A stretch of 38,269 nt of DNA. Source: a virus. The stretch is from positions 1 through 38,269 of the IMG/VR virus record IMGVR_UViG_3300010371_000070; one strand, written 5' to 3'. The notes under the pieces were generated by a model. That model was not told the DNA's origin and made no database searches. It worked only from the letters and a program-made list of their open reading frames with translations. Within the stretch, counting starts at the first letter, position 1. Each line of letters opens with the position of its first letter. This document shows, one piece after another, positions 801 to 35,649 of the stretch. Position numbers and translations under genes: made by a program.

Positions 801-840
801 GTGCGTTGTTGCATGGCGGGGCGGATAGCACCGTCCGGCC
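801..840 (+). promoter_or_regulatory. Late-unit element A (GTGCGTTGTTG) before the tail gene
   Basis: GTGCGTTGTTG begins exactly 40 bp before the ATG at 841. The same 11-mer lies exactly 40 bp before the ATG at 11587, and a close copy lies 40 bp before the ATG at 33313. No Shine-Dalgarno is visible in the last 20 bases before 841 (ends CCGTCCGGCC). A TTG-rich block near -35 of a leaderless start is the simplest reading. This is inference from recurrence and spacing. Confidence 0.5.
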
Positions 841-2502
841 ATGCCTGAGTTCCTGAACCCGACCGATATCGGCAACCGGGCCGCGCAGCATTGCGGCGCC
901 GAGATGATGGACCCCATTCAGGGGTTCAATGAAGTCTCCAAGACTGCCCGCAACATCTCCTTCGTCTACGGCAAGCTGCGCCGGGCCGAGCTCGAGCAGA
1001 ACGTCTGGACCTTTGCCACCCGCAAGGCGGCGCTGCGGCCTGTTGATACCAACACGCTGCTACTGGCACCGGCGCTATGGGTCTCGACCACGACCTATTT
1101 TGTCGGTTCTGTCGTGGCTGATTCGGTAGGTACGCTGTGGATCTCCGACATCCCAAGCAACCTGAACAACCAGCCTGGGCTCGCCTTCTCGGCATGGGAG
1201 CCATATTTCGGGCCGTTGACGGCGGCGCTCTACGATTCCTCGCAGGCCTATTTCGCAGGCGAGCTGGTCTACACCGCGGCCGGTGACGGGACCTACAACA
1301 CCTACCTGTCGCTGCTGACCGGCAATGCCGTGCATCCGGGACTGCCGAACCAGTGGTCGGTCTCGACGACCTACTTCCAGAACGACGTAGTGCAGTCCTT
1401 CCCGGCATGGGCCAGCGGCACGACGTATGCGGCCGGCGCCACCGTCACCTATACGGATGGAAATACCTATTCGTCGCTGATCGCTGGCAATGTTGGCAAT
1501 GCGCCGACGGCGAACATCGGCACCAAATGGGCGCTGACGCCGACACTGACCCTGGCGTCGCAGACCGTGCCTATGACGACGCCGTTGACCAATCTGGCGA
1601 CATCTCCGGTCAACGAATGGGCGCGCGCGACCACCTACGGGCTCGGCAGCTTCGTCATGTTCAACGGCAGCGAATACGTGTCGATAGTGGCCAACAACAC
1701 CGGAAACCTGCCGAACGCATCCGGCTCGACCTTCTGGAAGGTGCTGAGCGGCGGCACGCTCTACATGAGCCTGATCGACCTGAACGGCGGCAACAACCCG
1801 ACTTCGGCGCCGGCGGCGTGGTCGAACCTCACGACCTATTCCTCGGGCCAGCAGGTCTACAGCCCGTTCACCGGTCTGATCTACACGTCGGCCACGAACA
1901 GCAATCTTGGCAACGATCCGTCGACAGACAGTGGCACAAACTGGACGAACACGAATGTTCTCTGTCCATGGACGAGCGTGTTCACGCAGGGCGGCGGCAA
2001 CAGTCAGTGGATGCAGGTTGGCGGCGCGTCCTTCCCGACCGGCGTCGGCCTCTCCGAATTGAACATTGTCTATCCCGCCGGCTCCGGTCCGCTGTCGCAG
2101 TCGTGGACCAAGAACGTCTTTCACATCCCGGCCGGCTTTTTGCGCGAGGCGCCGCAATCTCCAAAGGCGGGATCAAGTTCCGCGCTCGGTGCGCCAGGCG
2201 GCCTGATCTACAACGATTGGGAATTTGAGAACCAGTACATCGTCAGCATGACGTCGACTCCGATCCTGTTTCGTTTCGTGGCGGATATCCAGGACGTCAC
2301 GCGGATGAAATCGTTGTTCTGCGAAGGACTCGCGGCCAGCATTGGATTGGCGGTCTGCGAACCGCTGACCAACTCCACCGCCAAACTTGCGGGGATCAGT
2401 CGCATCTACAAGGATAAGATCAGTCAGGCCAAGCTGCAGAATGCGATCGAGGCCGGCGCAGAGGAGCCGCCCGTAGACGATATGATCGCGTGCCGGATTT
2501 GA
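841..2502 (+). CDS. Tail tubular protein A-like adaptor with inserted glycan-binding-like repeats
   Basis: Of 553 residues, the first ~75 and last ~90 resemble the T7 gp11/tail tubular A adaptor that joins portal to nozzle. The N-terminal part has a helix ending LEQNVWTFATRKAALRP. The C-terminal part has the 'FVADIQDVTRMKSLFCEGLAASIGLAV' type of helix, here cited only by its start FVADIQDVTRMKS, then a Tyr-Lys-x-Lys-Ile-Ser-x-Ala helix. Between them (~80-360) lie about five short repeats of the pattern W-x4-TY-x2-G-x2-V-x4-G-x-x-Y-x-S, often followed by Gly-Asn-x-Pro, resembling carbohydrate-binding modules of chitinase type. A normal family member is roughly 200 residues, so more than half is insertion. 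It is followed 3 bases later by tail tubular B, its usual partner. Confidence 0.82.
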   Translation: MPEFLNPTDIGNRAAQHCGAEMMDPIQGFNEVSKTARNISFVYGKLRRAELEQNVWTFATRKAALRPVDTNTLLLAPALWVSTTTYFVGSVVADSVGTLWISDIPSNLNNQPGLAFSAWEPYFGPLTAALYDSSQAYFAGELVYTAAGDGTYNTYLSLLTGNAVHPGLPNQWSVSTTYFQNDVVQSFPAWASGTTYAAGATVTYTDGNTYSSLIAGNVGNAPTANIGTKWALTPTLTLASQTVPMTTPLTNLATSPVNEWARATTYGLGSFVMFNGSEYVSIVANNTGNLPNASGSTFWKVLSGGTLYMSLIDLNGGNNPTSAPAAWSNLTTYSSGQQVYSPFTGLIYTSATNSNLGNDPSTDSGTNWTNTNVLCPWTSVFTQGGGNSQWMQVGGASFPTGVGLSELNIVYPAGSGPLSQSWTKNVFHIPAGFLREAPQSPKAGSSSALGAPGGLIYNDWEFENQYIVSMTSTPILFRFVADIQDVTRMKSLFCEGLAASIGLAVCEPLTNSTAKLAGISRIYKDKISQAKLQNAIEAGAEEPPVDDMIACRI

Positions 2503-2505
2503 GCC

Positions 2506-5500
2506 ATGGGGTCGTCCTCCTTCGTCTGGACCTCATTCACCGGCGGTGAGATCAGCCAGACCGCGCAGGGCCGGTTCGATCAGCCCTATTACAAGACCTC
2601 GCTCAACGTCTGCCTGAACGGCATCCCGCTGGAAAACGGTTCGTGGCAACGTCGGCCGGGCACCCGGCATGTTGCGCCGACTCGTGGCGGCAAGACTGGA
2701 AAGCTGATCTCGTTTTCGTTCCAGGATAGCTTCCCATACCAGATGGAATTCACGGACGGCTTCCTGCGCTTCACGACCGGTCCGTCCCTGGTCATGACCA
2801 ACGACCAGCAGTCCATCGTTGCAATCTCCAGCGCCAATCCTGCAGTCGTGCAGACGGCATCTGCTCATGGCTGGTCGACAGGAAACTCCGTCGCCTTCAA
2901 TTCGCTTGGCGTGAACAATCCGCTGCTGCAAAACCGACAGTTCACGATCACGGTTGTCAACACCACACACTTCTCTATTGCGGATGCGATCACCGGAGCA
3001 TCGATCGACGGATCAACACTTGGAACATTCGCGTCCGGCAACGTGACGCGAATTCTCGAAATCGCGACGACCTACAATTCTGGATCATGGTCTGGCCTGC
3101 GATCAGTGCAGGCAGAGACTCGTACCGTTTTGCTTAATGGAACTAAGCCGCAAATTCTTCAGGTAGCGACGGCCCCGACGATATCGCAGTTCGCAACCTT
3201 CACATTCAGTCCGTCCGATTTCATCGATGGGCCGTATCTCGATCCGATTGATGGCTCTGTTGTTTCATCGAGCGCGCTGAACGGCGTCGTTACTCTGACA
3301 TTTTTCTTTCAAGCCTACGATTCAACCATTGCCTACAACATCGGGGATTTCGTCTCATCTGGTGGCGTAGGCTACCAGTCATTGACATCTCTGAACCAGA
3401 ACAATACGCCGGCCTCGTCACCGTCGAACTGGAAGGTCGTCAACGGCGGTACGCCTGTCAATAATGGGCAAGGTTTCCAGTCATCAGATATTGGGCGACT
3501 GCTTCGGCTGTTCTCCGAGCCGCAATTGTGGAATTCATCAAGCACGTATACCACGGGAACGGTTGTCGCTTATAGCGATGGCATCGGAGGTTTTTCGTAT
3601 TGGACCGCAACTGGATCGGTCGGCGCAGGAGTTCAGCCTGGAACATCAACGCTCTGGGCGATCAATGCCACAGGTGCTCAATGGACCTGGGCGCAGGTCG
3701 TATCAGTAAGCGGCTCTGGACTGATCTCTCCAGTCAGTGCGATCGGAAGTCTTGTTAGTGGCGGCGGTATTGCTGCGGCGTTCGATGGCAACACAGGAAA
3801 ATCCTTTTCGTCCTGCGCTACCTTCTTCACCAATATTCAGACCTGGCCGGTATGGTCGGCAGTGGTGTGGGGAGTGGGGAATGTCTGTCAGTACGCTGGC
3901 ACGGCCTATCGCGCCAATGTGACGATCGTCCCGAGCCCACCTTTCGATGCATGGAATTCTGGGATCGCCTATGGGAACGGTCAAACCGTTACCTATCAGG
4001 GAGCTGTCTATACCTGCATTCGCACGGAAACCTTTTTCGCTGGAGTTGGAATTCCTCCAACTGGATATAGCGCCCTTGGCCTCACATCTGCGATGTTCTG
4101 GACTTTTATCGAGTCGATCAGCGCGTTGCCGCCGAACCTTGCCCCAAGCCTATGGACGTCATTAGGCGCCATCTCCGGAGCGAGTGAGGACGTTTATGTA
4201 GGCCAGCACTATTCATCACCATCAGCGATTTCGCTGGTGACATTGTATCCCTCTGTGGATGTCGGTCTGGCCAATGTACCTAGTGACAGCGTGCAGAATG
4301 GCACATACACGATCAACCTTCGCGCCAAGAACAGCGCGCCGTCAGCAGCAAATGACGGGACGGTTCTAGCAACACTGACACTTGGTAATAACATCGCACC
4401 GATTACGTTGATATCAACAGATCAAGTGTCGACATGGAGCTATGTCTGGGTTGAAATCACGGCATCATATTTGCAGCCGCTACCGGATGACGGATCGCAC
4501 ATATTTGTCATCAAGATCGGCCTGAGCCAGGTGCAATTCTACGCGCCGAACGTCAATAATGGTTCTGTCATTACCGCTCAGATACGCGGCAATGCGCTGC
4601 TCTACAACCAAACGATTCGAACATGGCAGCTCGGCGTCTACAGTGACACGACGGGCTGGCCGACCTGCGGCACCTATCATGAGGGCCGCATCTGGTTTGG
4701 TGGCGTGGTTTCTAACCGCTTCGACTCCAGCGTGTCGAACGGCTTCAACGGGATCGAGCTTGATTTCACACCGACCGGACCTGATGGGACTGTGTCAGTC
4801 AGCAATGCGATCTCCTACATCTGCGACGGCGAGGACACGAACCAGATCCTTTGGATGACGCCGGATCAACAGGGTATCATCTTCGGCACGCAGGCCGGTG
4901 AATGGCTGATCTCGGCTCCAGCACAGGGCGCTCTGGCTCCGACCAACATCAAGGCTGTGCGGGTCACCAAGATCGGCTGCGCCAATGCCGAGCCGCGCCG
5001 CGCGGAACATACGCTGCTGTTCATCCAGAAGTTCTCCCGCAAGATCATGGAGTACTTCGCTGACGTGTTCTCCGGAAAGTTCTCCGCGCCAAACTTGTCC
5101 GAGCGCGCCAAACACATGACGGTGAATGGTGTTGCCGAGATTGCCTACCAGCAGGAACTGGCACCGATTTTCTGGTGCCGTCGCAATGACGGTGCTCTGG
5201 TCGGCGCGACCTACAAGCGCGATACGCTCACGACTTCGCAAGGGCCAACCATTATTGGATGGCACCGGCATCAACTCGGCTCCGGCAGGCGCGTGGAGAG
5301 CATCGCTGTCGGTCCGTCACATGGGGGCAATCTCGACAGCCTGTCACTCATCACGAACGATACTAATAGCGGCGTGCGCCATCTTGAGATCATGGGCGAC
5401 CTGCTCGACGAAAGCTTTATCCTGACTGATTGCGCATTCCTTGACGATGCCATCACACCATCATCTACTCTGGTCCAGGCTGGACCGACTGGCGGTCCAT

Positions 5501-6072: not shown

Positions 6073-6073
6073 C

Positions 6074-6757
6074 ATGGCCATCAGCAACGCGACCTTCTCC
6101 GATATCTCTGGCGCGGTCTCCGACATCTTCGCCGGCATGGGCGCCGCAGATAAGGCAGCGTTGCAGGCGCAGGGGCTGCGCATCACGGCGCAGGGAACGC
6201 TGATAACGGCGCAGGGGACGCGGCTGAATGCGGAATCGCTGCGCACCAAGGCGGCCGGAGATATCGCAGAGGCTTCGAACTACGACCTTGCCTCGACGCT
6301 GGCCGAAGCCAACAAGGCTTACACCGACCAGTCGACGCGGCTACAGCAATCGCAACTCAATCGAAATATCACCCAGACGATCGGTGGGCAGCAGGCGGGC
6401 GTCGCGGCTTCCGGCTTCGGCGCCGGTGGCAGCGCGGCCTATCTGCTCAGGGACTCACAGGCACAGGGGGCGCTTGCCAAGGGCGTGCTGGCACAGCAGG
6501 GCGTCATCACCGAGGCCGGCTATGAGCAGCAGGCGCAGTCCTATACCACGCTGGCCAATGCGGGCCGGGCCACGGCAGCAGCCGAGATGGATATGGCCAG
6601 CAAGACCGACACCATCGCCACGGAGCAGGACGCTCTTGCGGTGCAGCAGCAGCAACTGGCCAACCAGACCCAGGACGTCGGCAACAAGGAAGCCGACATG
6701 GATTTCTTTTCCGGTGCAATTAAGGGAGTGTCGGCGATAGCGTCGATATTTATCTGA
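6074..6757 (+). CDS. Internal virion protein (gp14-like position)
   Basis: 227 residues, starting one base after the nozzle gene stop. It is rich in Ala, Gln and Gly, with repeated short helices (RITAQGTLITAQGTRL), a central Gly-rich hinge near residues 105-125, and a long Gln-rich helix before a short hydrophobic end (GAIKGVSAIASIFI). This composition and its place directly after the nozzle gene match the small internal core proteins ejected with DNA by T7-type podoviruses. Sequence identity to T7 gp14 is not evident to me, so the role is from position and composition. Confidence 0.72.
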   Translation: MAISNATFSDISGAVSDIFAGMGAADKAALQAQGLRITAQGTLITAQGTRLNAESLRTKAAGDIAEASNYDLASTLAEANKAYTDQSTRLQQSQLNRNITQTIGGQQAGVAASGFGAGGSAAYLLRDSQAQGALAKGVLAQQGVITEAGYEQQAQSYTTLANAGRATAAAEMDMASKTDTIATEQDALAVQQQQLANQTQDVGNKEADMDFFSGAIKGVSAIASIFI

Positions 6758-6758
6758 C

Positions 6759-11400: not shown

Positions 11401-11545
11401 GCAGGTCATGCACAGCATGGTGGAGAGCGCGCGCCGCACGGCCGGCTCGATGATGCAGGCCAAGCACCCGGAACTGATCATGCAGGGCGTCAAGGACCGC
11501 CAAGACAAGATCACCGGGGTCAAGCCGACCAAACTGCAGGACTGA
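8480..11545 (+). CDS. Large internal virion/DNA ejection protein
   Basis: 1021 residues from a GTG that overlaps the previous stop (GTGA). The first ~250 residues are Pro/Ala/Glu-rich and low in complexity. The first 25 hold two copies of the short motif (S/T)DAEVFG, which is often seen at the N-terminus of very large phage ejection proteins. From ~430 the protein has hydrophobic helices (YLYYWVNALISGPVTHL) and a conserved-looking region MQPFKLILPFTHIPGQILR followed by GWWYSYNKFGPIGDL. These features fit the biggest core protein of podoviruses (gp16 position), which inserts in the host envelope. I did not find a lytic transglycosylase active site such as the one in T7 gp16, so peptidoglycan cleavage by this protein is not supported. 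Confidence 0.78.
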   Translation: MTELSDAEVFGTPKPHEMTDAEVFGGGVDNSPRPAFSPGGGAFTGSDGVDVAKTVYPSLGPILSAFGHGAKEGWGDEPIGLSPESVKWLSDKGIFGPEKGGYQNPFQAFNELLAHTVVGAADIAAKAGAAALRGSQAAVAATGEQVGAPALGRDLAAMPEAFFGSPHPTGIPKELPPAVEGRTVETPPVPVAEPGALPPAVAEARDLGVIGPPKPDLSTASPAEKAAAEVPPPPKIAAAAMEGGEIKRGPVPGGPEKAGNIRLDQIGINADAKDVMLEAAKNNDDFNQARAGNVPLAQVESLSNASGVPSETLTGNDGLGRLMHNDAVVRTWLQAFHQATDEIADQMKTVANTGDDADIAKLREMKLRFQHMQEQVSGLTAEAGRTLGVFREFYANKGKAEALGKVLEDNPGLDADSLKKLADAGKGLDDPASVARLLHDSNKPTFWDKYLYYWVNALISGPVTHLKYIGANAAFGAYEAGVVTPIAGALGAARRLVGGTDGVYVGEAAARTWGLLAGTPDALKAAWEAAKNNVMTPFENEVAGKAVNPLTQVRPNPIGGKLGFAIGIPGRSAAGIHSFFRFLGYRAEIEAQAYRAAAKEGLSPLDGTAFWERRAALADQPTEAMMNAGIENGNHLTFISEQGEFGKAISRLANTRLGPGGMQPFKLILPFTHIPGQILRAGLEQTPAAFLDTKMRADILGKNGAVAADTARARLVAGGAVSAMVANWAVNDVVTGYGPTDQTERAQWLRTHEPYSVRLGGWWYSYNKFGPIGDLVGLVANMVDVGPAVKEGDYANAAGHVMKATSRILEDEVGMQGLVNLIEALDDPDRKMGRFVAGQAASNLPYSSLLRQGASITDPYMREAKTFVDQLRYAVPFARQELLPKRDWLGAPMDNPGYASIIRQRAVNEDPIDQAVSQLRGFRPAPPQPRIGGVALPPRMYDEYQATAGALTRASLESMVTAPGWGQIPPGIREQVMHSMVESARRTAGSMMQAKHPELIMQGVKDRQDKITGVKPTKLQD

Positions 11546-11546
11546 G

Positions 11547-11586
11547 GTGCGTTGTTGGTCGCGGCGCGGGCGGAACAATCCCGACC
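11547..11586 (+). promoter_or_regulatory. Late-unit element B before the fibre operon
   Basis: GTGCGTTGTTG at 11547-11557 is identical to element A and also exactly 40 bp from the following ATG (11587). It overlaps the tail of the ejection gene stop region. The 20 bases before the ATG (ending CAATCCCGACC) have no Shine-Dalgarno. The exact repetition of both sequence and distance is the evidence for a control site. Confidence 0.5.
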
Positions 11587-13479
11587 ATGCGCCAGATCCT
11601 GAAATTCCTCGTCCTCGCCGCCGCACTGCTGGCCCCATCCATCGCCAGCGCGCAGTGCCAATTCACTTTTCCGCTCCCGGCAAATACCGTTGTGGGCCGG
11701 CTTGGGGCGACCGGTAGTTCTGGACCCTGCCAAGCCATCCCATTCGCGGCGTTGGCATCGAGCGTTTTATCATCAGTGGCTACCGGGCACTGGTTTGCGC
11801 AGAATGGCGGCGTCGTCAATCGCATGAACGATAGGCTTCTTATCGGCGGTGCAACTGTCGGAGACGGCGCATTCCCCAACGTTACTCAAGACTGGCTGAC
11901 GCAGTTCCAGATCGCTGCCGGCCTCTCTGCTGGCGCTCCTATAGTTCACGAGCTGTCTGTTCTGACGCAACCTTCGTCAGCGGCTGCTTCCGGTGCTGAT
12001 GGAATTCTTGGTGGCGCGCAGAGTCTCTTCTCGACTAGCGCGGCGACTGCGACCATCGGCATTAGTGGTTATGCCGTCAACAACAACGCCACACTTGCTA
12101 CCGATGCCTGGGCGTTTTACGGGGAATGTCACAACACGACTTCGTCGGTCAACGGCTGCATAGGTATGGAGCTTGATCCGCGAACTACAGTTGCCTCTGT
12201 GTCGCCGTCGCCTGCGCAGCAGGGCAACGTCCTCGGTGAGCAACTTGCTTGCGGCGCTGGACTTGCCACGACTGGCCAGGATTGCTCCGCCGCCATTCAG
12301 CTCGCTCGTAATCCCACAAAGTTCAAGGTCGGCATCAATTTTATGCAGGATGCCCTGACCGGCAACGACGGCACAACGGGTTCGGCAACCGCCATAGCCC
12401 TTCCAAAGGGAGACACTATCCAATGGTACAACTCCTCTGGGGTTACAACAGCGGCGATTGCGAGCACTATCGCAACGGCTGCGAACGGCATCAATCTGAA
12501 CTTTAATGATAATGGCCTTCAGGTCGCGAATAGTTCGAACTCTTACTCTATAGCCTATTTTTTTCCGCTCGCGAGCTCGGTCAATTATCTGTCGTTCCAG
12601 CCTAACGTGACAGGCAGCGCTCCGACCATAGCGGCCGGAGGCACTGACACGGACATCGGAATCAACCTGACAGGCAAGGGTGCCGGGACTATTAATTTAA
12701 ATTCTGCCATCAAGTACGGTGGCGTGACGCTTTCTAACTCGGTGACCGGTACCGGGGCGATGGTGTTGGCAACTTCGCCAACGCTGACGACGCCGATTCT
12801 AGGCGTTGCCACGGCGACGTCCATCAACAAGGTGGCCATTACCGCGCCAGCGACGTCGGCAACACTGACGATTGCCAATGGCAAAACTCTTACCGCATCG
12901 AACTCGCTCACGTTGGCCGGAACAGATTCGACGACGCTGACGTTCCAGGGCACGGATACCTATATCGGTCGCGCGACGACAGATACTCTGACGAATAAGA
13001 CTTACGACACGGCCGGCACCGGCAACGTTTTCAAGATCAACGGCACAACTGTATCATCGGTGTTTGGCTCTGGGAGCGCTGTTTCAATGGCGGCTGTTCT
13101 CGGTCAACTTCGGTTCGTGATCACCGGAGTAAACTTCAATTCTGCAAACACGGACAACGCTATCTCGATTTCGCTACCGAGTGGAGTTACCCGTTATCAG
13201 GTGACAGGAATCCGCATCACAAATGCGAGTGCGTCAGTCTCTACTGCCACAGCGGGCCTGTTCACCTCTACTGGCGGTGGAGGCGTGGCGATTGCTTCCA
13301 ATCAGGCAATTACGGTTACGGCGACAGCAACCGATACAAACAACAACATGCAGGCGCTGACCCTAAATAACAGCAGCACCGAGGCATACAACGATGCAAC
13401 GCTCCAGTTCCGGATTGGGACTGCGCAAGGATCAGCGGCGACTGCCGATGTGCATCTGACCATCATTCCGCTTACTTAA
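11587..13479 (+). CDS. Tail fibre-like protein with N-terminal signal peptide
   Basis: 630 residues. Residues 1-22 form a clear Sec signal peptide: Arg/Lys start, LKFLVLAAALLAPS core, ASA-Q cleavage site. The mature part is Ser/Thr/Gly/Ala-rich with few charges. It contains a VVGRLGATGSSGPCQAIPFA segment and, at ~375-480, the repeat-like beta run common in tail fibres (VTGTGAMVLATSPTLTTPIL, TLTNKTYDTAGTGN), then a beta domain at the C-terminus. Fibre-type sequence and position after the ejection genes suggest receptor binding, but a signal peptide is unexpected for a protein assembled in the cytoplasm. It may instead be exported. G+C is lower than in the upstream virion genes, as often in host-range genes. 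Confidence 0.75.
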   Translation: MRQILKFLVLAAALLAPSIASAQCQFTFPLPANTVVGRLGATGSSGPCQAIPFAALASSVLSSVATGHWFAQNGGVVNRMNDRLLIGGATVGDGAFPNVTQDWLTQFQIAAGLSAGAPIVHELSVLTQPSSAAASGADGILGGAQSLFSTSAATATIGISGYAVNNNATLATDAWAFYGECHNTTSSVNGCIGMELDPRTTVASVSPSPAQQGNVLGEQLACGAGLATTGQDCSAAIQLARNPTKFKVGINFMQDALTGNDGTTGSATAIALPKGDTIQWYNSSGVTTAAIASTIATAANGINLNFNDNGLQVANSSNSYSIAYFFPLASSVNYLSFQPNVTGSAPTIAAGGTDTDIGINLTGKGAGTINLNSAIKYGGVTLSNSVTGTGAMVLATSPTLTTPILGVATATSINKVAITAPATSATLTIANGKTLTASNSLTLAGTDSTTLTFQGTDTYIGRATTDTLTNKTYDTAGTGNVFKINGTTVSSVFGSGSAVSMAAVLGQLRFVITGVNFNSANTDNAISISLPSGVTRYQVTGIRITNASASVSTATAGLFTSTGGGGVAIASNQAITVTATATDTNNNMQALTLNNSSTEAYNDATLQFRIGTAQGSAATADVHLTIIPLT

Positions 13480-14839: not shown

Positions 14840-14903
14840 TACAGGATTACTCCTCCCTGAAATGGCGCAACTATAGGCACGCAACCGCAGCGCTATCAAG
14901 CGG

Positions 14904-14946
14904 GGACGTTGTTGCATGTAAGCCACGCCGCCATGGTCGCCCCGTC
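14904..14946 (+). promoter_or_regulatory. Late-unit element F before the lysis genes (variant copy)
   Basis: GGACGTTGTTGCATG at 14904-14918 keeps CGTTGTTG of the late element and shares the following CATG with element A. It is 43 bp before the ATG at 14947, rather than 40. No Shine-Dalgarno precedes that ATG. It lies in the divergent spacer between the glycan gene and the endolysin gene. Confidence 0.4.
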
Positions 14947-15591
14947 ATGGCGGATATCCTGCAGAATCTCCTCTCCAAGGCTGATTTGCTCATCGTTTTC
15001 ATGGGCATGGCGCTGCTGCTCTGGCGCGCGCTCGACGCGCTGTCCACGCTGGCGCACCTTCTGGCAGGTCAGCCGGCCTCAAGCAAGGCGGCTGGCGCCA
15101 TTGTCGGCACGGTCCTACCCAAGATACCCGCGGCCGCTCCTGAGCCGTCCCAGCCGCCAACGGAAACTGTCGTTCTCGATCAGGCCTTCGTCGACTTCGT
15201 GAAACGGCAGGAGGGCTACGCGCCCAAGGCCAAATGGGACTACAAGCAGTATACCAACGGTTACGGCACCAGGGCGCTCTCGGCCGACGAAACGATCAGC
15301 GAGGCTGAGGCAGAGCGCCGGCTGACCGACGAACTCGGCAAAGCCCTGATCGCGGTCAAGGCATTCATCCCCGCCAATACCCCCGTGGGCGTCGAGCAGG
15401 CGCTCACCGATGCGTCCTTCAATCTCGGCACGGCATGGATGAAGGCCGGCCTGGGGACGGCTGTAAAGGCCGGGGATTGGGCCGCAGCCAAGGAGCACCT
15501 CCTCCAATACAACCACGCCGGCGGTCAGGTCCTGGACGGACTGACCAAGCGTCGTCAGGCGGAGGTCAACATGTTCGACAACCCTTTATGA
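14947..15591 (+). CDS. Endolysin, GH24 lysozyme with N-terminal membrane anchor
   Basis: 214 residues from ATG 14947. Residues 12-41 form one hydrophobic segment (LLIVFMGMALLLW core), followed by a Pro/Ala-rich linker (~58-72) and a GH24 lysozyme domain from ~77. Catalytic Glu89 (RQEGY), Asp98 and Thr103 (YTNGYGT) follow the Glu-x8-Asp-xn-Thr order of T4-type lysozymes, with one residue fewer between Asp and Thr than usual. Later motifs (ALTDASFNLG, TKRRQAEVNMF) match the family. The enzyme cleaves peptidoglycan glycan strands. The anchor suggests export without holin-made holes, as in signal-arrest-release lysins, though the segment is more hydrophobic than many of those. Longer in-frame starts upstream are less likely because they run into element F. 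Confidence 0.88.
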   Translation: MADILQNLLSKADLLIVFMGMALLLWRALDALSTLAHLLAGQPASSKAAGAIVGTVLPKIPAAAPEPSQPPTETVVLDQAFVDFVKRQEGYAPKAKWDYKQYTNGYGTRALSADETISEAEAERRLTDELGKALIAVKAFIPANTPVGVEQALTDASFNLGTAWMKAGLGTAVKAGDWAAAKEHLLQYNHAGGQVLDGLTKRRQAEVNMFDNPL

Positions 15592-26654: not shown

Positions 26655-26656
26655 AG

Positions 26657-27010: not shown

Positions 27011-27020
27011 GCCAGGAGCA

Positions 27021-27082: not shown

Positions 27083-27086
27083 CATC

Positions 27087-27299
27087 ATGACTATGTCAGA
27101 CACCGCACTCGATCGAGCCATCAAAGCCGCCGGCGGCCTTACCAACTTGGCCGCTTCGCTGAACATCACCAAGCAGGCCGTAGCGCAATGGTCCGAGGTG
27201 CCGCCGTTGCGCGTGCTTGAGGTCGAGCGCGCATCCGGTGTGTCCAGGCACGAACTGCGACCCGACTTGTATCCTCGCGAAGAAAGAGCGCGCGCATGA
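27087..27299 (+). CDS. Cro-like YdaS-family regulator
   Basis: 70 residues from ATG 27087 (an ATG at 27093 or GTG at 27075 is possible; the GTG lies inside operator R1). The sequence is the YdaS/Cro-like helix-turn-helix: ALDRAIKAAGGLTNLAASLN, ITKQAVAQWSEVPPLRVLEV, ending SGVSRHELRPDLYP. It lies divergently from the repressor with only the three operators between, so it is the natural lytic switch protein. Confidence 0.85.
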   Translation: MTMSDTALDRAIKAAGGLTNLAASLNITKQAVAQWSEVPPLRVLEVERASGVSRHELRPDLYPREERARA

Positions 27300-27588
27300 C
27301 GCCGCGCTGTCGCCATGTCGACGACATTCCCAGTGCTCATCGCTGTGAGCCCCCCGACTATGTTTGTGCTCTTGAATGGGAGCACTCAAGCACGGCGGGC
27401 ACTTTCTTGTCACGTCGAATTCGCAATCGTGACACAATTCAAGGGTGCGTGGTGCATAAGCCACAGCCTGTTCCATTCTGGGACACAATCCCCGTAAAAA
27501 TACTGCGGCGTTGCGCACTGCGCAGTTCAGATGGGGCGAGATTTCTGACTTTTGGTTCATGTTCGTGTCTGCGTGGGGAGAGTTGCGT
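27300..27588 (+). other. Region without a confident gene after the Cro-like gene
   Basis: 289 bp. A frame beginning ATGA at 27296 and a 60-codon frame at 27315 exist, but both have poor composition and no motif, and the first would run through the next gene. At 27386-27396 the sequence TCAAGCACGGC repeats the left half of operator L1 exactly, without a matching second half. It may be a leader carrying antitermination or minor operator sites. Confidence 0.4.
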
Positions 27589-27900: not shown

Positions 27901-27984
27901 TTCAGTTCGTGTGCATGCGTCTCTGCCGGCGAGGGGGCCGGTCGGTCTACTATCTGAGACAGCAACTTGATCGACGTCGCATGC

Positions 27985-30040: not shown

Positions 30041-30327
30041 TGGATATCGAGGACGATGTCGAGCGAATGCTGTTCTGCGATGTGTGCGGCGCTCCAGCAT
30101 GCTTTGGCTTCGGTGTGACGGTGGACGGCATCAGGATGGGCGACATGGGTTCGTGGCGATGCGAGGAGCATCACCCTACTCGGAAAGCGCGATACACACG
30201 CGAGGAGTGGGCACAGGCGCGCGCGGAGGGACGGCTATACCCGGATCCCTCGGAGCCCAAAGGGGAATGGCAGAGGCTGAGCGAGATCATCGCTCGCGGC
30301 ATGCCGAACAAGGAAGCCGCCGAATGA
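30040..30327 (+). CDS. Small Cys-containing protein, unknown
   Basis: 95 residues from ATG 30040; GTG 30037 just upstream would overlap the helicase stop and is possible. Residues ~12-50 contain LFCDVCGAPACFGFGV and WRCEEHH, a possible zinc site. The rest is polar (TREEWAQARAEGRLYPDP). It ends with ATGA overlap on the LuxR-type gene. No family is recognised. Confidence 0.65.
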   Translation: MDIEDDVERMLFCDVCGAPACFGFGVTVDGIRMGDMGSWRCEEHHPTRKARYTREEWAQARAEGRLYPDPSEPKGEWQRLSEIIARGMPNKEAAE

Positions 30328-30560
30328 CACCGCTCACACCGCGTCAGCAGGAGGTTTGCGCTCTGATCCTGCTTGGCCTGACGAACAAGGAAATAGCCAT
30401 TCGGCTTCGCGTTTCATGGCGCACCGTGGAGGATCACCGCGAGAAGATTTTCGAAAAGTACGGTGTGCGAAGTGCGGTTCACCTTCTGCGTACGATCTAC
30501 AACATCCAACCAGAGCGGGGGCTCTCGAATGAACAGGCTGCGGAATTTATTGACCCGTGA
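30324..30560 (+). CDS. Small LuxR/GerE-type helix-turn-helix regulator
   Basis: 78 residues from ATG 30324 (ATGA overlap). Nearly the whole protein is a LuxR/GerE DNA-binding domain: LTPRQQEVCALILLGLTNKE, IAIRLRVSWRTVEDHREKIF, EKYGVRSAVHLLRTIY. There is no sensor domain. Located in the middle of the rightward operon before the late genes, it is a candidate activator of late transcription; this is inference. Confidence 0.82.
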   Translation: MTPLTPRQQEVCALILLGLTNKEIAIRLRVSWRTVEDHREKIFEKYGVRSAVHLLRTIYNIQPERGLSNEQAAEFIDP

Positions 30561-30633
30561 CGAAAAGGTATTCGCGACGCTCGCAATCATGCTGTGGGTC
30601 GGCGCGCTTGTCGTGAGCGGGGTGTGGCCATGA
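30529..30633 (+). CDS. Tiny membrane protein (34 residues)
   Basis: ATG 30529 lies inside the end of the LuxR-type gene in another frame. A charged start (NRLRNLLTRDEKVF) leads to one membrane helix (ATLAIMLWVGALVVSGVW). Its stop overlaps the next ATG (ATGA). The clean helix and coupled end argue that it is real. Confidence 0.5.
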   Translation: MNRLRNLLTRDEKVFATLAIMLWVGALVVSGVWP

Positions 30634-30812
30634 TCCAGATGCATCGCATGGCGAATGGCGGCGGCCACAAGCGCCGCATCACCCGGCGGCAGCGCGAAGA
30701 AATCCTGCGATTGTCCGAGAGTAACATGACGGCGGCGCAGAAACTCGCCACCAAGCTGAAGCTGTCGCCAACCTATGTGCAGCGGCTGCGGTATGATCGG
30801 GGGATGGCATGA
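30630..30812 (+). CDS. Small helix-turn-helix-like protein
   Basis: 60 residues from ATG 30630 (ATGA overlap). A basic start (MANGGGHKRRITRRQREEIL) is followed by a helix-turn-helix-like unit (NMTAAQKLATKLKLSPTYVQ, RLRYDRGMA). It resembles small resolvase/transposase-type HTH modules and is probably DNA-binding. It ends with ATGA overlap on the next gene. Confidence 0.62.
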   Translation: MIQMHRMANGGGHKRRITRRQREEILRLSESNMTAAQKLATKLKLSPTYVQRLRYDRGMA

Positions 30813-30985
30813 GCCTGTTCGACGGCAAGCCAATCGGGCGGATCGATTTTGGGCCGCGTCCTCGGCCGCAGGAGCCCGCCGATGAGACTTTCAGTTTCAG
30901 CCCCGTGTACTGCGATAAGGTTTGGAAACTCACCAGGCAGATCGCTGAGGGCACCAACGTGGCACAGCGGGAGGTGACGGAATGA
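30809..30985 (+). CDS. Small protein (58 residues), unknown
   Basis: ATG 30809 overlaps the previous stop. The protein is polar with a Pro/Arg-rich start (RIDFGPRPRPQEPADE) and a helix (VYCDKVWKLTRQIAEG). It stops at 30985, one base before the next ATG. It is below usual length limits but chained at both ends. No family is recognised. Confidence 0.55.
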   Translation: MSLFDGKPIGRIDFGPRPRPQEPADETFSFSPVYCDKVWKLTRQIAEGTNVAQREVTE

Positions 30986-30986
30986 C

Positions 30987-31430
30987 ATGGGCGCCGACTG
31001 CATCACATGCGCGATCGCGGACGCGGCGGATCGCATCACGGCATTCCGGCTCGTCCGGCTGCTCGAACAGGGGGAATTGACGATGGCTTTGGAGCTCAAG
31101 GGATTGAAGGCGGAGTCCGTAGCAGCACGGGCTCATCATGCGCGGCTGCTGCAGGCCTACCGCTCGTTCAATGTGGCGGCGCCGGCGCATGCGGCTGAGG
31201 TCGAGGGGCTGTCCGAGGAAATTACGGAGATGTCGTCCGACCTCGCGTTCGCGGTGGGCCTCGGGGGAAACGGTGGCGGCTCTGGAGCCGCTACGGAAGG
31301 CAAGGAGAAGCCTGCCGATCCGCCCAAGGGTGAGGAGCCAAAAACTGAACAGGCAAATCCTGAGCCTCCACAAGTCCAGCAAACACCGGGCGCGCCGTTG
31401 GTCGCGTCCCAGCCGAACTTTCACGAATAG
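30987..31430 (+). CDS. Protein with helical start and Pro-rich tail, unknown
   Basis: 147 residues from ATG 30987, or 115 from ATG 31083, which has a better ribosome site (GGGGGAA). The core is helical (LKAESVAARAHHARLLQAYR, EGLSEEITEMSSDLAFAVGL) and the last ~50 residues are Gly-, Pro- and Glu-rich without structure. It might be a small virion or DNA-packaging helper; no family is recognised. Confidence 0.6.
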   Translation: MGADCITCAIADAADRITAFRLVRLLEQGELTMALELKGLKAESVAARAHHARLLQAYRSFNVAAPAHAAEVEGLSEEITEMSSDLAFAVGLGGNGGGSGAATEGKEKPADPPKGEEPKTEQANPEPPQVQQTPGAPLVASQPNFHE

Positions 31431-31457
31431 GCGCAGCAGGATCTGGAGGTTTGGGGG

Positions 31458-31673
31458 ATGAGCGGTCGGAAGCGGATTTACGAGTGGATGCTGCACTACC
31501 GTAATGTTGCGGAGAGGCGGCGGTTTCGGATCGTCAGGTGGAAGTTGACCGACGAGCAGGCGCGGCAATTCTCGCAGGAATGCGCGGCCGGCAATGCCGT
31601 GATCGCAAAGGAAAATCTCTACCAGTTGCGGAGGGGCTGCAAGATCCTCGATATCCCGGCGGTGATTGTATGA
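31458..31673 (+). CDS. Small basic protein, unknown
   Basis: 71 residues with GGAGGTTTGGGGG before ATG 31458. It is Arg-rich (RKRIYEWMLHYRNVAERRRF) with a helix (DEQARQFSQECAAGNAVIAK) and a hydrophobic end. It is probably nucleic-acid binding. It overlaps the next gene by ATGA. No family is recognised. Confidence 0.65.
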   Translation: MSGRKRIYEWMLHYRNVAERRRFRIVRWKLTDEQARQFSQECAAGNAVIAKENLYQLRRGCKILDIPAVIV

Positions 31674-32173
31674 CCGCGCCGATCAGGATTCCCGAACAGA
31701 ACGAGGTCTTGGCCGTGGTGCGCAACCAGGCCGACCTGGTCGAGGCCTTCCGCAAGATGAAGGCGATCCTCGGCATGACCAATGCGCACTGCGACGAGCT
31801 CGCCAATATGGGCGAGGGTGCGACGGACAAATACCTGGGGCCGACATGCTCCAAGGAGATCGGCGCGCTGACATTTAACCGGTTCTGCTGGCTGTTTGGC
31901 GTGCAATTCGAGATGCGGATTGACCTCGATCAGATGCGGGTCATGGCTGAGCATTGGGACGACCGCAAACGGTTGCGGCCGGCTGAATGGTCGGAGACCA
32001 ACAAGGTCTCGAAGAAGATGCTCAAGAAGGCAAAACCCATTGTCCACAGGGAGTCTGGCAGGCTCGGTGGCATGGTGCGTTGTCACCTGCTTACGCCTAA
32101 GCAGCGATCCGACATCGCCCGGAAAGCCGCCAAATCACGCTGGAATAAATTTCGGAAATTCGGGGTGCGTTGA
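31670..32173 (+). CDS. Phage protein with basic KAA-type tail, probable regulator
   Basis: 167 residues from ATG 31670. The first ~100 are helical (QADLVEAFRKMKAILGMTNA and following). The end has GGMVRCHLLTPKQRSDIARK followed by AAKSRWNKFRKF, a short basic motif shared by many bacterial and phage DNA-associated proteins. This gene is the last before late element E, and its stop overlaps that element. A role as switch from early to late genes is possible but not shown. Confidence 0.65.
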   Translation: MTAPIRIPEQNEVLAVVRNQADLVEAFRKMKAILGMTNAHCDELANMGEGATDKYLGPTCSKEIGALTFNRFCWLFGVQFEMRIDLDQMRVMAEHWDDRKRLRPAEWSETNKVSKKMLKKAKPIVHRESGRLGGMVRCHLLTPKQRSDIARKAAKSRWNKFRKFGVR

Positions 32174-32203
32174 TAGGATTTAGGCGTCTGCCAACATGTG
32201 CAG
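32165..32203 (+). promoter_or_regulatory. Late-unit element E
   Basis: GTGCGTTGATAGG begins 39 bp before ATG 32204. Eight bases (GTGCGTTG) match the other elements and the ninth GG before it is shared too. It overlaps the stop of the upstream gene. No Shine-Dalgarno precedes ATG 32204. This is the most 5' of the series in the late direction. Confidence 0.42.
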
Positions 32204-32728
32204 ATGCCAAATCGCCCCTCACCAGAGCTGATTGCCGCCAAACAGTGGGAAATCAAGCGCCGCTACAGTCGCAATGCCAAGGTAGGCAAGCGAACCCGCT
32301 CCATGGCATCGATCCGCATATCAGAACTCACCCGATGGCTTGACGATGCAGTCGGTGCCGGCATCGAGCTCGAGCCATGCCAATGGTCTGAGGGCATCGC
32401 CCACATCTTCGTGCATCATTTCGTGGTGCTCGCCGACGGCAATCGCCGCGCGTCCAACTGGCTCGAACTCTATTGCCCGTGGATATCCGTGCGAGATCGA
32501 GAGTATATGATTACCGAGGCCAATCACTGCCCGCTCAAATGGTCGGCCGACACATTGGCTTGGAAGATCCGCCTCACCGACGGCAAGCGCGCTGAACTGG
32601 CGATCACCACGATCGGCGCCATCGACTGCGGCCGCGACCAGCGCGCTGCCAGACGCAAGAAACGCAAGGCTGAACGGGAACGAGCCAGACGCGCAGCCAA
32701 GCGCGCAAGCCGCGTGTCCACCATATAG
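32204..32728 (+). CDS. Basic phage protein, unknown
   Basis: 174 residues from ATG 32204 (an in-frame GTG lies at 32198; the ATG fits the element spacing). The N-terminus is basic (KQWEIKRRYSRNAKVGKRTR), the middle has alpha-beta sequence (HIFVHHFVVLADGNRRASNW, LTDGKRAELAITTIGA), and the last ~35 residues are almost all Arg, Lys and Ala. It is probably nucleic-acid binding. Its stop lies in a long dyad (32712-32750). Confidence 0.65.
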   Translation: MPNRPSPELIAAKQWEIKRRYSRNAKVGKRTRSMASIRISELTRWLDDAVGAGIELEPCQWSEGIAHIFVHHFVVLADGNRRASNWLELYCPWISVRDREYMITEANHCPLKWSADTLAWKIRLTDGKRAELAITTIGAIDCGRDQRAARRKKRKAERERARRAAKRASRVSTI

Positions 32729-32750
32729 GTGCTATATATGCTGGACACGC
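32712..32750. repeat. Long dyad over a stop codon
   Basis: GCGTGTCCA (32712-32720) and TGGACACGC (32742-32750) are perfect 9-bp arms. The 21-bp interior also tends to pair (CATATAG at 32722-32728 and CTATATATG at 32732-32740). The stop TAG of the upstream gene is inside. No T-run follows. It could be an RNA hairpin ending the unit or a protein-binding site. Confidence 0.55.
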
Positions 32751-32784
32751 TCCCAGCCTGACGAGCGCAAGCGCGAGGATGTAC

Positions 32785-32970
32785 ATGCAGCACGATGAGG
32801 AATCAGAGAAGCTGATAGCCGAAGCAAGCCGACGCCTCGCTGATCTGCGCACGTACAGGCAGATGTACCGACAAGCCATCGACGAACTCAATCGAACGAC
32901 AGACAACGACTTCGCAAAGACCGAGCTCGAAAGAGTGAGATTGATCTCATTCAGTCGCCACCAGCGGTAA
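32785..32970 (+). CDS. Small helical protein (61 residues), unknown
   Basis: ATG 32785 is preferred to 32779 because GCGAGG then lies six bases upstream. It is acidic then basic, and wholly helical: QHDEESEKLIAEASRRLADL, RTYRQMYRQAIDELNRTTDN. It could form a dimeric coil. It is the last gene before the non-coding origin/packaging region. Confidence 0.6.
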   Translation: MQHDEESEKLIAEASRRLADLRTYRQMYRQAIDELNRTTDNDFAKTELERVRLISFSRHQR

Positions 32971-32999
32971 CGATGACTTTGTCAACGATCTCCGCGCTC

Positions 33000-33066
33000 T
33001 TATCCACACAGTGTATGTTCCTCATCAAGGAACAACTATATACATATATATCAATAGCTTAGCTTA
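33000..33066 (+). other. DnaA box, hairpin and AT-rich tract (origin-like)
   Basis: TTATCCACA at 33000-33008 is a perfect consensus DnaA box. GTTCCT (33017-33022) and AGGAAC (33028-33033) form a short hairpin. ACTATATACATATATATCAA and a following TAGCTTAGCTTA are strikingly AT-rich for this genome. The set resembles a DnaA-dependent origin with an unwinding element. It may be a second origin or a host-factor site. Confidence 0.5.
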
Positions 33067-33272
33067 TGGCTGTGTCAGTCATGCGCAAATGATGCCAGGC
33101 GCAACGCTCGCGCTGGCGAAACCCAGACTGAGATAAATCAAGGACTTGGCCGAAAAGACCGGGGAGGGGGTGGGGGCAGGCGGAAAATCCCGCCCGCGCG
33201 CACACGCGACATCCCCATTTGATTTCGCGGACTTGGCCTGAATTGTGTTGCTTTACGGCAACGGGTTTGAGG
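33067..33272 (+). other. Non-coding G-rich region, packaging-site candidate
   Basis: No credible gene. It has a G-run series GGGG-A-GGGGG-T-GGGGG (33161-33176), a hairpin GGCGG-N6-CCGCC just after it, and the direct repeat GGACTTGGCC at 33142-33151 and 33229-33238. It lies directly upstream of the small terminase gene, where cos or pac sites are commonly found. Assignment is by position and repeats. Confidence 0.4.
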
Positions 33273-33312
33273 GTGCGTTGTCGGCCGTCACGGGTTACCG
33301 GATTTTGGTTCC
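33273..33312 (+). promoter_or_regulatory. Late-unit element D before terminase
   Basis: GTGCGTTGTCG starts exactly 40 bp before ATG 33313, with one difference from elements A and B. The bases before the ATG (ATTTTGGTTCC) contain no Shine-Dalgarno. It heads the terminase operon. Confidence 0.5.
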
Positions 33313-33912
33313 ATGGCTGAACCGCTTTACCCCATGAGTTTTCCTGAAGATTGGTCGAGTTTTGGCCCGAAGGTGCAGGCTCTGCGCGATCGGGAGCGGA
33401 GGTTTGTCTGGGCCTACCTGATCAATTCGATGACCCCTGTGGGGGCGAATGGGTCGCAGTCGGCTCGGGACGCTGGCTATTCGGACCGAGCGGAGGGGGC
33501 GAAGGTCAGGGCGCATGAGTTGCTGCACCGGCAGGACGTCCAGGAGGCGATCCACGAGCTTGCGATGCGGGAGCTACGCGGATTGGCGCTTCCGGCTTTG
33601 GCTGCAATTTCGGACATCCTGAGGAAGCCTGACCATCCGGACCGGCAGAAGGTGGCTTTGTCGGTTCTGTCGCGGCTGGGGATGGGTGAGCAGAGCGGAG
33701 TGAACCTCCACATGACCGGCGAGGTGACGGTCAACCACACGGATGCGGCGCTGGATGATCTGCGGCGATTGCTGGACCTGGGCGTACCGCGGGAGAAGCT
33801 GGTCGAGACGTTCGGGTATTCCGGGCTTTCCCGGTACGAGAAGATGCTGGCGCAGCGCGAGGGGGAACGATTGCCACCGCCGGCAGTGATCGAGGGAGAG
33901 GTGAACAGATGA
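33313..33912 (+). CDS. terS: Terminase small subunit
   Basis: 199 residues. The N-terminal DNA-binding region has the common terminase small pattern: RDRERRFVWAYLINSMTPVG, then SQSARDAGYSDRAEGAKVRA and HELLHRQDVQEAIHELAMRE. The centre is helical (oligomer-forming) and the C-terminus (PPPAVIEGEVNR) may contact the large subunit. It recognises the packaging site, probably just upstream. ATGA overlap links it to the next frame. Confidence 0.87.
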   Translation: MAEPLYPMSFPEDWSSFGPKVQALRDRERRFVWAYLINSMTPVGANGSQSARDAGYSDRAEGAKVRAHELLHRQDVQEAIHELAMRELRGLALPALAAISDILRKPDHPDRQKVALSVLSRLGMGEQSGVNLHMTGEVTVNHTDAALDDLRRLLDLGVPREKLVETFGYSGLSRYEKMLAQREGERLPPPAVIEGEVNR

Positions 33913-34103
33913 TTGGCGGCGGGGTGTACGACACGCGTGATGCGGCCGAGGCGGCCGCAGAAAAGACTTTGCGGGGAATATTGGTCGCAACAGCCGATTG
34001 CGGGAAGACTACCCGGAGCCGGTGTATTTCCGCATCATTTGGCGTCTACCGAGCAAATACGAACCCGAATGTCTGGGTTTGGGAAAGCCCCCCGCGTGGC
34101 TGA
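33909..34103 (+). CDS. Small protein between the terminase genes
   Basis: 64 residues starting with ATGA overlap on the small terminase. YDTRDAAEAAAEKTLRGILV is a good helix, followed by mixed sequence (CISASFGVYRANTNPNVWVW). It overlaps the start of the large terminase by 8-35 bases depending on the start used there. The coupled start and protein-like composition favour it. The function is unknown. Confidence 0.5.
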   Translation: MIGGGVYDTRDAAEAAAEKTLRGILVATADCGKTTRSRCISASFGVYRANTNPNVWVWESPPRG

Positions 34104-35631
34104 CGTCGAAGAGGGACCGGACCCGAACGATGTGCGGCGGCATGCCAAGCGCATGTATACCGAGATGCAGTACCGGCAGAAATACCGGCGCATCGATTAT
34201 TACCGTCCGAATGACAAGCAGCGCGCGTTTCACAACGCGACGGCCCGCGAGGCTCTGCTGCGCGCCGGGAACCAGTGCGGCAAGACGTTCGCGGGCGGGG
34301 CACAGATGGCCATGGATGCGCTCGCCATGTACCCGGACTGGTACGAAGGGCGGCGGTTTTTGAAGCCTCCGCCGATTGAGCGGCCGTTTGAATGGCTGGG
34401 CTGGGCAGCCTGCGACACCTCGGCGACGACGCGTGCGGGTGTGCAGACCAAGCTGCTGGGCGATCTCAGTCAGGACGACGGACTGGGAACCGGGCTTATC
34501 CCGCTGGACAACATTGTCGGCAAGCCATCCATGGCGCGCGGGATCGCGGACTTCGTCGACAGCGTCTCGCTGCGGCGGGAGACCGGCGGCACCGCGGTGA
34601 TCCGCTTCAAGACCTATGAGCAGGGGCGTAAGGCCTTCCAGGGTGAGCCTGTCGATCTGGTCTGGCCGGACGAGGACGAGGGCGACGATTCGCTGCAGGG
34701 CGAGATGTTGGCGCGTCTGACCACGACGAACGGCCGGATCATCCGGACCATGACACCTGTCATCGGCATGACCCCGGTGCGTCGGCGGTTCAAGGAGCAG
34801 ACGCCAGGGACAATCGAAATCCTGATGACCATCTGGGATTGCGCGATCTCCAAGGGAGGGCATATCCCGGACGAGCGCATTCCCGAGATCATTGCGAGTT
34901 ATAAGGAACACGAGCGGGCGACGCGCGCGTTCGGTGCGGACATGCAGGGCGAGGGCGCGGTGTTCGTTGCGCCGCAGAGCAGCATCAAGCACACACTCGA
35001 TCCCTCTGAGGTGCCGCCCTATTGGCCGTGGATGTGGGGCGTCGACTTTCGCCATTCCGGCTCGCCGACGTCTGGTCATCCTTTTGCGGCGGTGCTCGGC
35101 TGCTGGGATCGGGACGCCGATGTGATCTATCTCATGCATGCGATCCGAATGCTCGGACTGGCGAGCTCGCATGTTACCGCCATGAAGGCTTTTCCTCGCT
35201 GGCAGGCGCCGGTGGCCTGGCCCCACGACGGCGGTCGCGGTGCCTCGATCATCGATGGCGAGACGGTTGCCAAGACCTATCGCGGCCTCGGCCTGAACAT
35301 GCGCCCGACGCATGCGACCCTGCCGACTGGCGGATTCAATTTCGAGGCCGGCTTGCGTGAGATGGAAAACCGCTTCGATGCCAAGAAACTCGTAGTTGCG
35401 GCGCACCTGGCCGAGTGGTTCGACGAATACCAGGGGTATCACCGGAAGGACGGCCTGGTCATCAAGGTCGACGATGACCTGCTATCGGCCACCCGGCAGC
35501 TCGTCATGGACATCCGTTTCGCCAAGACAATCGAGCATTTCAATTACCGGCGTCCCCTGGGCAATGGCCCAAGCGGCCGCTTCGCCCGCGGCTCCCAGAA
35601 CCATCCCGACGGGGAATTCCCCATTTTCTAG
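34069..35631 (+). CDS. terL: Terminase large subunit
   Basis: About 520 residues from ATG 34069; a GTG at 34096 is possible, and the frame is open back to 33913, but that extension is not protein-like. Walker A is LLRAGNQCGKTFAGG (~70-84). Walker B is PVDLVWPDEDEGD, with acidic residues at its end (~200). The nuclease domain starts near MWGVDFRHSG with the first Asp and has further acidic sites (HDGGRGASIIDGE). It cuts and pumps DNA into the prohead with the small subunit. The preceding small gene and the terminase overlap. Confidence 0.93.
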   Translation: MSGFGKAPRVADVEEGPDPNDVRRHAKRMYTEMQYRQKYRRIDYYRPNDKQRAFHNATAREALLRAGNQCGKTFAGGAQMAMDALAMYPDWYEGRRFLKPPPIERPFEWLGWAACDTSATTRAGVQTKLLGDLSQDDGLGTGLIPLDNIVGKPSMARGIADFVDSVSLRRETGGTAVIRFKTYEQGRKAFQGEPVDLVWPDEDEGDDSLQGEMLARLTTTNGRIIRTMTPVIGMTPVRRRFKEQTPGTIEILMTIWDCAISKGGHIPDERIPEIIASYKEHERATRAFGADMQGEGAVFVAPQSSIKHTLDPSEVPPYWPWMWGVDFRHSGSPTSGHPFAAVLGCWDRDADVIYLMHAIRMLGLASSHVTAMKAFPRWQAPVAWPHDGGRGASIIDGETVAKTYRGLGLNMRPTHATLPTGGFNFEAGLREMENRFDAKKLVVAAHLAEWFDEYQGYHRKDGLVIKVDDDLLSATRQLVMDIRFAKTIEHFNYRRPLGNGPSGRFARGSQNHPDGEFPIF

Positions 35632-35638
35632 GGCTGGG

Positions 35639-35649
35639 GTGCGTTGTTG
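35639..35649 (+). promoter_or_regulatory. Late-unit element C before a leader with terminator
   Basis: GTGCGTTGTTG at 35639-35649 follows the terminase stop by seven bases. Unlike the other copies, it has no start codon 40 bp on; the next gene starts at 35777 with its own GGAG. If a transcript began near 35679, it would cross the terminator-like hairpin at 35726-35767 first. Confidence 0.48.

Follow-up and report, generated by a model that had tools for sequence, protein, structure and literature searches.

A two-part, promoter-like sequence signal before the late operons of a temperate, podovirus-like phage lineage and a candidate protein that may read it

The virus record IMGVR_UViG_3300010371_000070 of IMG/VR, analyzed here from position 1 to 38,269 (the window, 38,269 bases in all), carries a short repeated element, GGTGCGTTG, that precedes late genes. 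On balance, and with only modest confidence, we favor the reading that this element is the -35 half of late promoters read by the protein of gene 31670-32173 together with the host polymerase, often with leaderless starts. By sequence comparison, the element belongs to a two-part signal with its own strand, spacing and set of genes that it precedes, and its letters agree within each phage; from this we infer a promoter, a helix-turn-helix (HTH) protein as its reader, the host sigma-70 polymerase as its enzyme and leaderless starts as its frequent outcome. The window contains tail, internal virion, endolysin, integrase, recombination, replication and terminase genes and breaks off within a connector (portal-like) gene that begins at 36647 (PHROG 332), the capsid region thus lying outside it. 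The phages form a temperate, podovirus-like lineage that is represented here almost exclusively by metagenome sequences. A nucleotide search of named phages with positions 33000-38000 gave no match, a terminase search for relatives in the genomes of named hosts found none, and a tail-protein search of host genomes returned one contig, in a Planctomycetota metagenome bin.

An exact search of the window finds GGTGCGTTG six times on the plus strand (800, 11546, 32074, 32164, 33272 and 35638) and zero times on the minus strand, precisely as an earlier note on this DNA had listed it. The same note put the number of chance copies at well under one, and 100 dinucleotide shuffles give 0.39 (standard deviation 0.63, largest 2). 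A variant before the lysis genes, which it placed at 14904, is GGGACGTTGTTG and begins at 14903. Its statement that all copies except 32074 lie in gaps is roughly right, save that two of them overlap stop codons: the G of the element at 800 also belongs to the stop codon of the open reading frame (ORF) 513-800, and the element at 32164 spans the stop codon of ORF 31670-32173, inside which the 32074 copy is found. The element at 11546 starts directly after a stop codon ending at 11545. To describe the element as heading every late transcription unit was too strong, the 32074 copy being intragenic with a weak second block.

When the plus strand of the window was scanned for both blocks of the signal, with a -35 profile trained without the window sites and a -10 profile trained on 60 sites including those of the window, the six sites and 14903 came out as the top seven, with scores from 28.3 to 14.9, followed at rank eight by 27444 (14.0); the best score on the minus strand was 10.5. 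An ATG follows 40-44 nucleotides past the first element base at 800, 11546, 14903, 32164 and 33272. The eighth-best match itself (27444-27486; GGTGCGTGGTGC, second block CCATTCTGGG) lies between a repressor-like gene and the rightward replication genes.

In an alignment of 60 sites, the element is the upstream half of the pair nGTGCGTTGCnn-N15-17-sCAnnKTss. With half of the records used for training and the other half for testing, the second block exceeded 4 bits in 54% and 60% of the sites at gaps of 15-17 nucleotides, and in 0-8% of them at nine other gaps. Read as hexamers, the pair is TTGCnn, 16-18 bp, then CAnnKT, with a conserved GTGCG just before the -35. Judged by its letters, the layout is sigma-70-like with a poor -10 (A-11, T-7). 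The two conserved blocks, their distance of 16-18 bp and the A-11/T-7 pair are those of the sigma-70 family; a near match to TTGACA/TATAAT is missing, and a consensus scan of 32900-36000 was blank despite the two elements in that interval. Since a consensus scan finds no site, the promoter would be at most weak, and helped. Sigma-54 promoters have GG-N10-GC at -24/-12; in the aligned window copies, the GG of the element has no GC at that distance. The second block also occurs downstream of the terminase gene and upstream of the capsid gene, at sites where no ATG stands at that distance, which favors a transcription signal over a translation signal.

The features of the window are as follows.

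800-811, plus strand: element GGTGCGTTGTTG (putative -35 part), with second block GCACCGTCCG at 828-837 (CACCGT at 829-834).
841, plus strand: predicted +1, on the A of the start codon ATG of gene 841-2502, the first tail gene (assigned by PHROG 394).
11546-11557, plus strand: element GGTGCGTTGTTG, with second block GAACAATCCC at 11573-11582.
11586, plus strand: predicted +1; the ATG of gene 11587-13479, which has no PHROG match, is one base further on.
14903-14914, plus strand: variant element GGGACGTTGTTG, with second block CCATGGTCGC at 14931-14940.
14944, plus strand: predicted +1; three bases on, an ATG at 14947 opens the endolysin gene 14947-15591, which matches PHROG 7 when translated from there.
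31670-32173, plus strand: candidate late activator of 167 residues, whose predicted structure combines a lambda-repressor-like HTH (roughly residues 15-83) with basic helices at the C-terminus.
32074-32082, plus strand: 9-mer copy located within the candidate regulator gene; its second block is weak, an ATG is missing at the usual distance, and a promoter is improbable here.
32164-32175, plus strand: element GGTGCGTTGATA, located where the candidate regulator gene ends, with weak second block CCAACATGTG at 32191-32200.
32204, plus strand: predicted +1, on the A of the ATG that starts the basic-protein gene 32204-32728.
33272-33283, plus strand: element GGTGCGTTGTCG, with second block GGATTTTGGT at 33300-33309.
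33313, plus strand: predicted +1 on the A of the ATG of the terminase small-subunit gene 33313-33912.
35638-35649, plus strand: element GGTGCGTTGTTG after the terminase large-subunit gene, with second block ACACCTTCCC at 35666-35675.
35679, plus strand: predicted +1, with no ATG there.
35679-35776, plus strand: predicted untranslated leader with a hairpin (35726-35761), a T-run (35763-35767), a Shine-Dalgarno-like GGAG and, at 35777, the ATG of the head operon.

Relatives were collected as 18 loci from terminase and tail searches in viral contigs, and as 50 loci from a terminase profile, the earlier ones included. Over the 529,128 bases of the 50 terminase loci, GTGCGTTG occurs in 105 late-strand and 5 other-strand copies, counts that overstate independence because some loci are near-copies of one another; the reversed spelling, used as a control, gives 11 and 11. 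An exact copy is missing from 12 of the 50 loci. In many relatives, the element is found on the upstream side of the terminase small subunit, the capsid region and the first tail gene, and downstream of the terminase large subunit. Absence of the element before the same genes in close relatives, which the earlier note had named as the finding that would speak against it, was examined and did not occur; its proposal of a coherent late-regulon signal, served by a phage-encoded activator or a host factor, gains support from the recurrence at the same genes, almost only on the late strand. In the window, the same site precedes several separate late operons on the late strand only, the arrangement of an activator-dependent late regulon. 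A gene-boundary or recombination sequence, or chance repetition, would be a very improbable origin for the copies. Many of them do adjoin stop codons and sit at module borders; however, chance is excluded by the shuffles and the 105-to-5 strand count, and the strand bias, the second block and the spacing to the start codon are unexpected for a boundary sequence.

Farther afield, two distant Rhizobium phages, whose terminases are 37-38% identical, lack the element 8-mer, and the best match to the regulator profile in them has an E-value of 0.036, which is not significant; many of their upstream regions, among those inspected by eye, have ordinary Shine-Dalgarno-like sequences. Record G005 (L077-L079), with a terminase 63% identical, lacks the regulator and has at most one GTGCGTTG on the late strand; a diverged element was sought in it and no convincing repeat was found; this relative may have switched to another late signal. 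A collection of 51 stretches with the exact 12-mer plus ATG from all viral contigs was set aside, its size being about the chance yield that we estimate for 15 specified bases in so large a collection; relatives do supply at least three of the contigs.

The position of the start codons suggests how the late messages may begin. The set of sites used here comprises 111 sites from 40 records (118 before near-identical contexts were removed). The ATG of an open frame falls on the predicted +1 or +2 in 42 of them and just around it in 16 more, while it stands elsewhere in 11 and is absent from the range in 42. In the window, the predicted +1 coincides with the A of the ATG at 841, 32204 and 33313, and precedes the ATG by one base at 11587 and by three at 14947. 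Shine-Dalgarno words of at least four letters occur before none of the 58 element-led genes, as compared with 132 of 399 other ATG frames, a comparison set made of the first ATG of long ORFs in which some starts and some ORFs will be wrong; shuffled leaders of the led genes contain such a word in 6% of cases. With the ATG at +1 or +2 and Shine-Dalgarno words absent, leaderless late mRNAs are likely, and they are the simplest reading of these starts. In a passage of a paper on phage AR9, phage transcripts are said to be often leaderless (PMC5312081).

The fixed distance to the start codon, the absence of Shine-Dalgarno words and the asymmetric, strand-specific nature of the element would also suit a signal acting at the RNA level near the 5' end of the late mRNA, such as a translation enhancer or an antitermination site, instead of a promoter. 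We find this explanation rather improbable, as the distance to the second block is kept where no start codon follows, and as the spacing varies by one base in the manner of that between a -35 and a -10.

In many records, the promoter-like signals downstream of the terminase gene and upstream of the capsid gene (PHROG 3437) have a leader after them in place of an ATG at +1. The predicted leader of the window (35679-35776) folds with -46 kcal/mol as a whole (z -2.2) and contains a strong hairpin at 35726-35761; of five leaders of this kind for which folding was computed, two had a z below -2 and three a z above -1. A terminator-like GC hairpin with a T-run lies directly before the Shine-Dalgarno sequence of the head operon at 35679-35776, L004:3798-3900, L105:11589-11670 and L113:2251-2349. 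Several of these post-terminase hairpins have loops with GGACAAG, like the capsid leader, and the GGAG has a possible pairing partner in an upstream CCTCC; the hairpin is a possible attenuator. The capsid leader, of about 150-190 nucleotides from the late promoter signal to the gene of the major head protein, was observed at L112:15864-16040, L105:16616-16800, L101:8132-8310 and eight further loci. Over these 11 loci, it forms three small hairpins from three imperfect copies of GGCCCCCGCAAGGACAAGGCC, with a GGACAAG-like strand repeated, and both sides have changed in 8 of its 23 consensus pairs. An Rfam scan of the window and five loci gave no match. At L005:3805-3970, two late promoter signals stand in tandem after the terminase gene with a terminator-like hairpin between them, and a short late RNA is possible there.

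The variation of the element among phages bears on the identity of its reader. Within one phage, copies of the element carry the same letter at the variable positions 1, 10, 11 and 12 in a fraction of 0.685 of comparisons, and shuffling the labels lowers this to 0.472 +- 0.021; positions 1, 10 and 11 each exceed all 1000 shuffles, and three flanking stretches lie only about two standard deviations above theirs. Moreover, whole cores can be respelled, as GGTGTGTTGC in G009, where four copies are spelled GGTGTGTTGCCG, and as GGTACGTTGC, found twice in L102, with zero copies on the other strand. The within-phage agreement and the respelled cores favor a phage-encoded reader over a host one, and such a reader, drifting with its phage, is likely judging from these letters. 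A host reader, whether an alternative sigma factor or a host activator recognizing the pair, would be consistent with the geometry of a sigma-dependent promoter and with the lack of a detectable phage sigma factor: sigma region 2 was found in none of 16 records by a search that works, its controls matching in 10 of 14 genomes. This explanation is nevertheless unlikely in our view, because the letters agree within phages and differ between them and whole cores are respelled together, though different hosts could produce the same pattern. As to the earlier note's statement that no phage RNA polymerase is present, nothing contradicted it: PF00940 (single-subunit phage RNA polymerase) matched none of the 16 records, and none of the 14 control genomes either.

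Among the phage proteins, that of gene 31670-32173 is the best candidate reader, by co-occurrence and by its predicted fold. It belongs to a fast-evolving family, with members 17-42% identical to the window copy, present in 32 of 58 records, near-copies included. Searches of Pfam and NCBIfam gave no convincing match for any member, and 9 of 28 weakly match PHROG 2384, a family of unknown function. The predicted model of the window protein (mean predicted local distance difference test score, pLDDT, 86.7; predicted template modeling score, pTM, 0.57) has an HTH at about residues 15-83 that superposes on HipB (Z 9.8, root-mean-square deviation 1.9, 72 residues aligned) and on 1rio (Z 8.1, root-mean-square deviation 2.6, 64 aligned). 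For the tests of co-occurrence, of upstream elements and of correlated distances (Mantel), L129, L131, L133 and L134 were omitted as near-copies of L102, L112, L128 and L101, the identity of a stretch having been checked for the first three pairs only. Of the 58 records, 25 extend at least 4 kb upstream of the terminase large-subunit gene; among these, the regulator gene is present in all 14 that have at least two elements; of the 11 with fewer, five have the gene and six lack it, and G009 and L102, with their respelled elements, are among the five (Fisher p 0.0026, not corrected for descent). No plus-strand element occurs within 1.4 kb upstream of the gene in 28 records. An element lies at most 40 bases from the end of the regulator gene in the window, G016, L127 and L128, and elsewhere the distance to the next element reaches as much as 6 kb. 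Mantel tests on 26 of the 32 regulator-bearing records relate the distance between motifs to that between regulators (r 0.19, p 0.02) and to that between terminases (r 0.41, p 0.003).

The same promoters could instead be served by another small HTH protein of the phage, namely the LuxR-type protein 30324-30560 or the 60-residue protein 30630-30812, with unrelated proteins doing this work in other phages. Both genes are located before the late region, small LuxR proteins are similarly placed in two Rhizobium phages, and 30630-30812 weakly matches PHROG 836, annotated 'late transcriptional activator' (E 0.008); with E-values as high as 1 admitted, 8 of 18 records have a match to that family. We nonetheless doubt this alternative. 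The PHROG 836 matches are weak, several of them are on the early strand and all 14 control genomes have them too; the LuxR family occurs in one of 19 records, that of the window, and the 57 other records contain no clear relative of either small protein, whereas a conserved site calls for a conserved reader. As a shared reader, 30324-30560 was rejected on that distribution, BLAST and phmmer finding no relatives elsewhere. It is a stand-alone LuxR/GerE-type domain, and similar ones are annotated in the two Rhizobium phages. The basic-protein gene 32204-32728 was also rejected, being absent from many element-bearing records and itself located behind an element.

Several further observations weigh against late promoters read by the 31670-32173 protein. 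With regard to the site, the second block reaches at most 2 bits in 31 of the 111 sites, 42 of them have a suitable ATG nowhere in range, and position 12 taken alone does not exceed its shuffles. With regard to the reader, the Foldseek E-values for its fold are weak (best 0.27), a palindromic site would be expected of a lambda-repressor-like protein and none is seen, the co-occurrence carries no correction for descent, and the gene lies on the opposite strand after the terminase in four records (L095, L099, L108 and L117). Finally, motif distance tracks the terminase better than the regulator, and once terminase relatedness is removed, the partial correlation of motif with regulator is no longer significant (r 0.12, p 0.10).

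If the 31670-32173 protein is the reader, this small DNA-binding protein, encoded by a gene at the border of the late region, would bind nGTGCGTTGCnn at about -41 to -30 and recruit the host RNA polymerase to the weak -10 (sCAnnKTs) located 16-18 bp downstream, thereby turning on the separate plus-strand late operons for terminase, head, tail and lysis. At many of these promoters, transcription would begin on or next to the A of the ATG, and the first gene would be translated from a leaderless mRNA; at the portal and capsid genes, a structured leader would be made instead. More tentatively, and as a conjecture that we rate below an even chance, the protein may represent a new family of small activators, made of a lambda-repressor-like HTH and a basic tail, in which a single asymmetric site replaces the -35 contact of sigma and drifts together with the phage-private spelling, with leaderless terminase, tail and lysis starts and with structured portal and capsid leaders that perhaps share an RNA motif.

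Known systems offer partial parallels. In phage P2, the zinc-finger activator Ogr acts at a dyad near -55. The regulon proposed here resembles the P2 late promoters in its separate late operons with one short site each, in the small phage DNA-binding protein that is presumed and in the use of the host polymerase; it differs in that the site is asymmetric and overlaps the -35, and in that the candidate is a lambda-repressor-like HTH. The lambda cI protein at pRM, like related HTH activators, contacts sigma region 4 next to the -35 (structure 1rio), and the cI mRNA is leaderless. Predicted HTH fold, a site next to or over the -35 and a leaderless product are common to both, whereas a late regulon would be controlled here instead of one promoter, and the palindromic operator is not seen. 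The start-associated sequences of the cluster K mycobacteriophages, GGGATAGGAGCCC, are described in one passage as lying at translation starts, about half of them with an additional 17-bp inverted repeat (PMC3203893). As presented there, they are likewise short asymmetric repeats of near-constant orientation before many genes of a phage group; the element has different letters, lies some 41 nucleotides upstream of the ATG with a -10-like block as its partner, and does not belong among them. In excerpts on the gene transfer agents of Rhodobacter and Caulobacter, the activators GafA and GafYZ have a DnaA-domain-IV-like HTH and a sigma-like part (PMC6363796, PMC9632790). On these descriptions, the likeness lies in a dedicated HTH activator of late phage-like operons in alphaproteobacteria, the Gaf activators binding several promoters; the candidate seems nearer to lambda repressor, the best matches listed for its model being lambda-repressor-type HTH domains. 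None of the literature matches listed describes the element sequence or such a leaderless, activator-driven late regulon.

In relatives that lack annotation, the signal also points out late operons and the start codons that are likely to be real, as with the endolysin start at 14947. If our reading is true, phages known here mostly from metagenomes would have a late-gene switch for which a candidate activator can be named, and a late regulon whose genes are apparently translated from leaderless mRNAs. Their varying sites and candidate activators would then constitute a natural series for studying how such codes drift.

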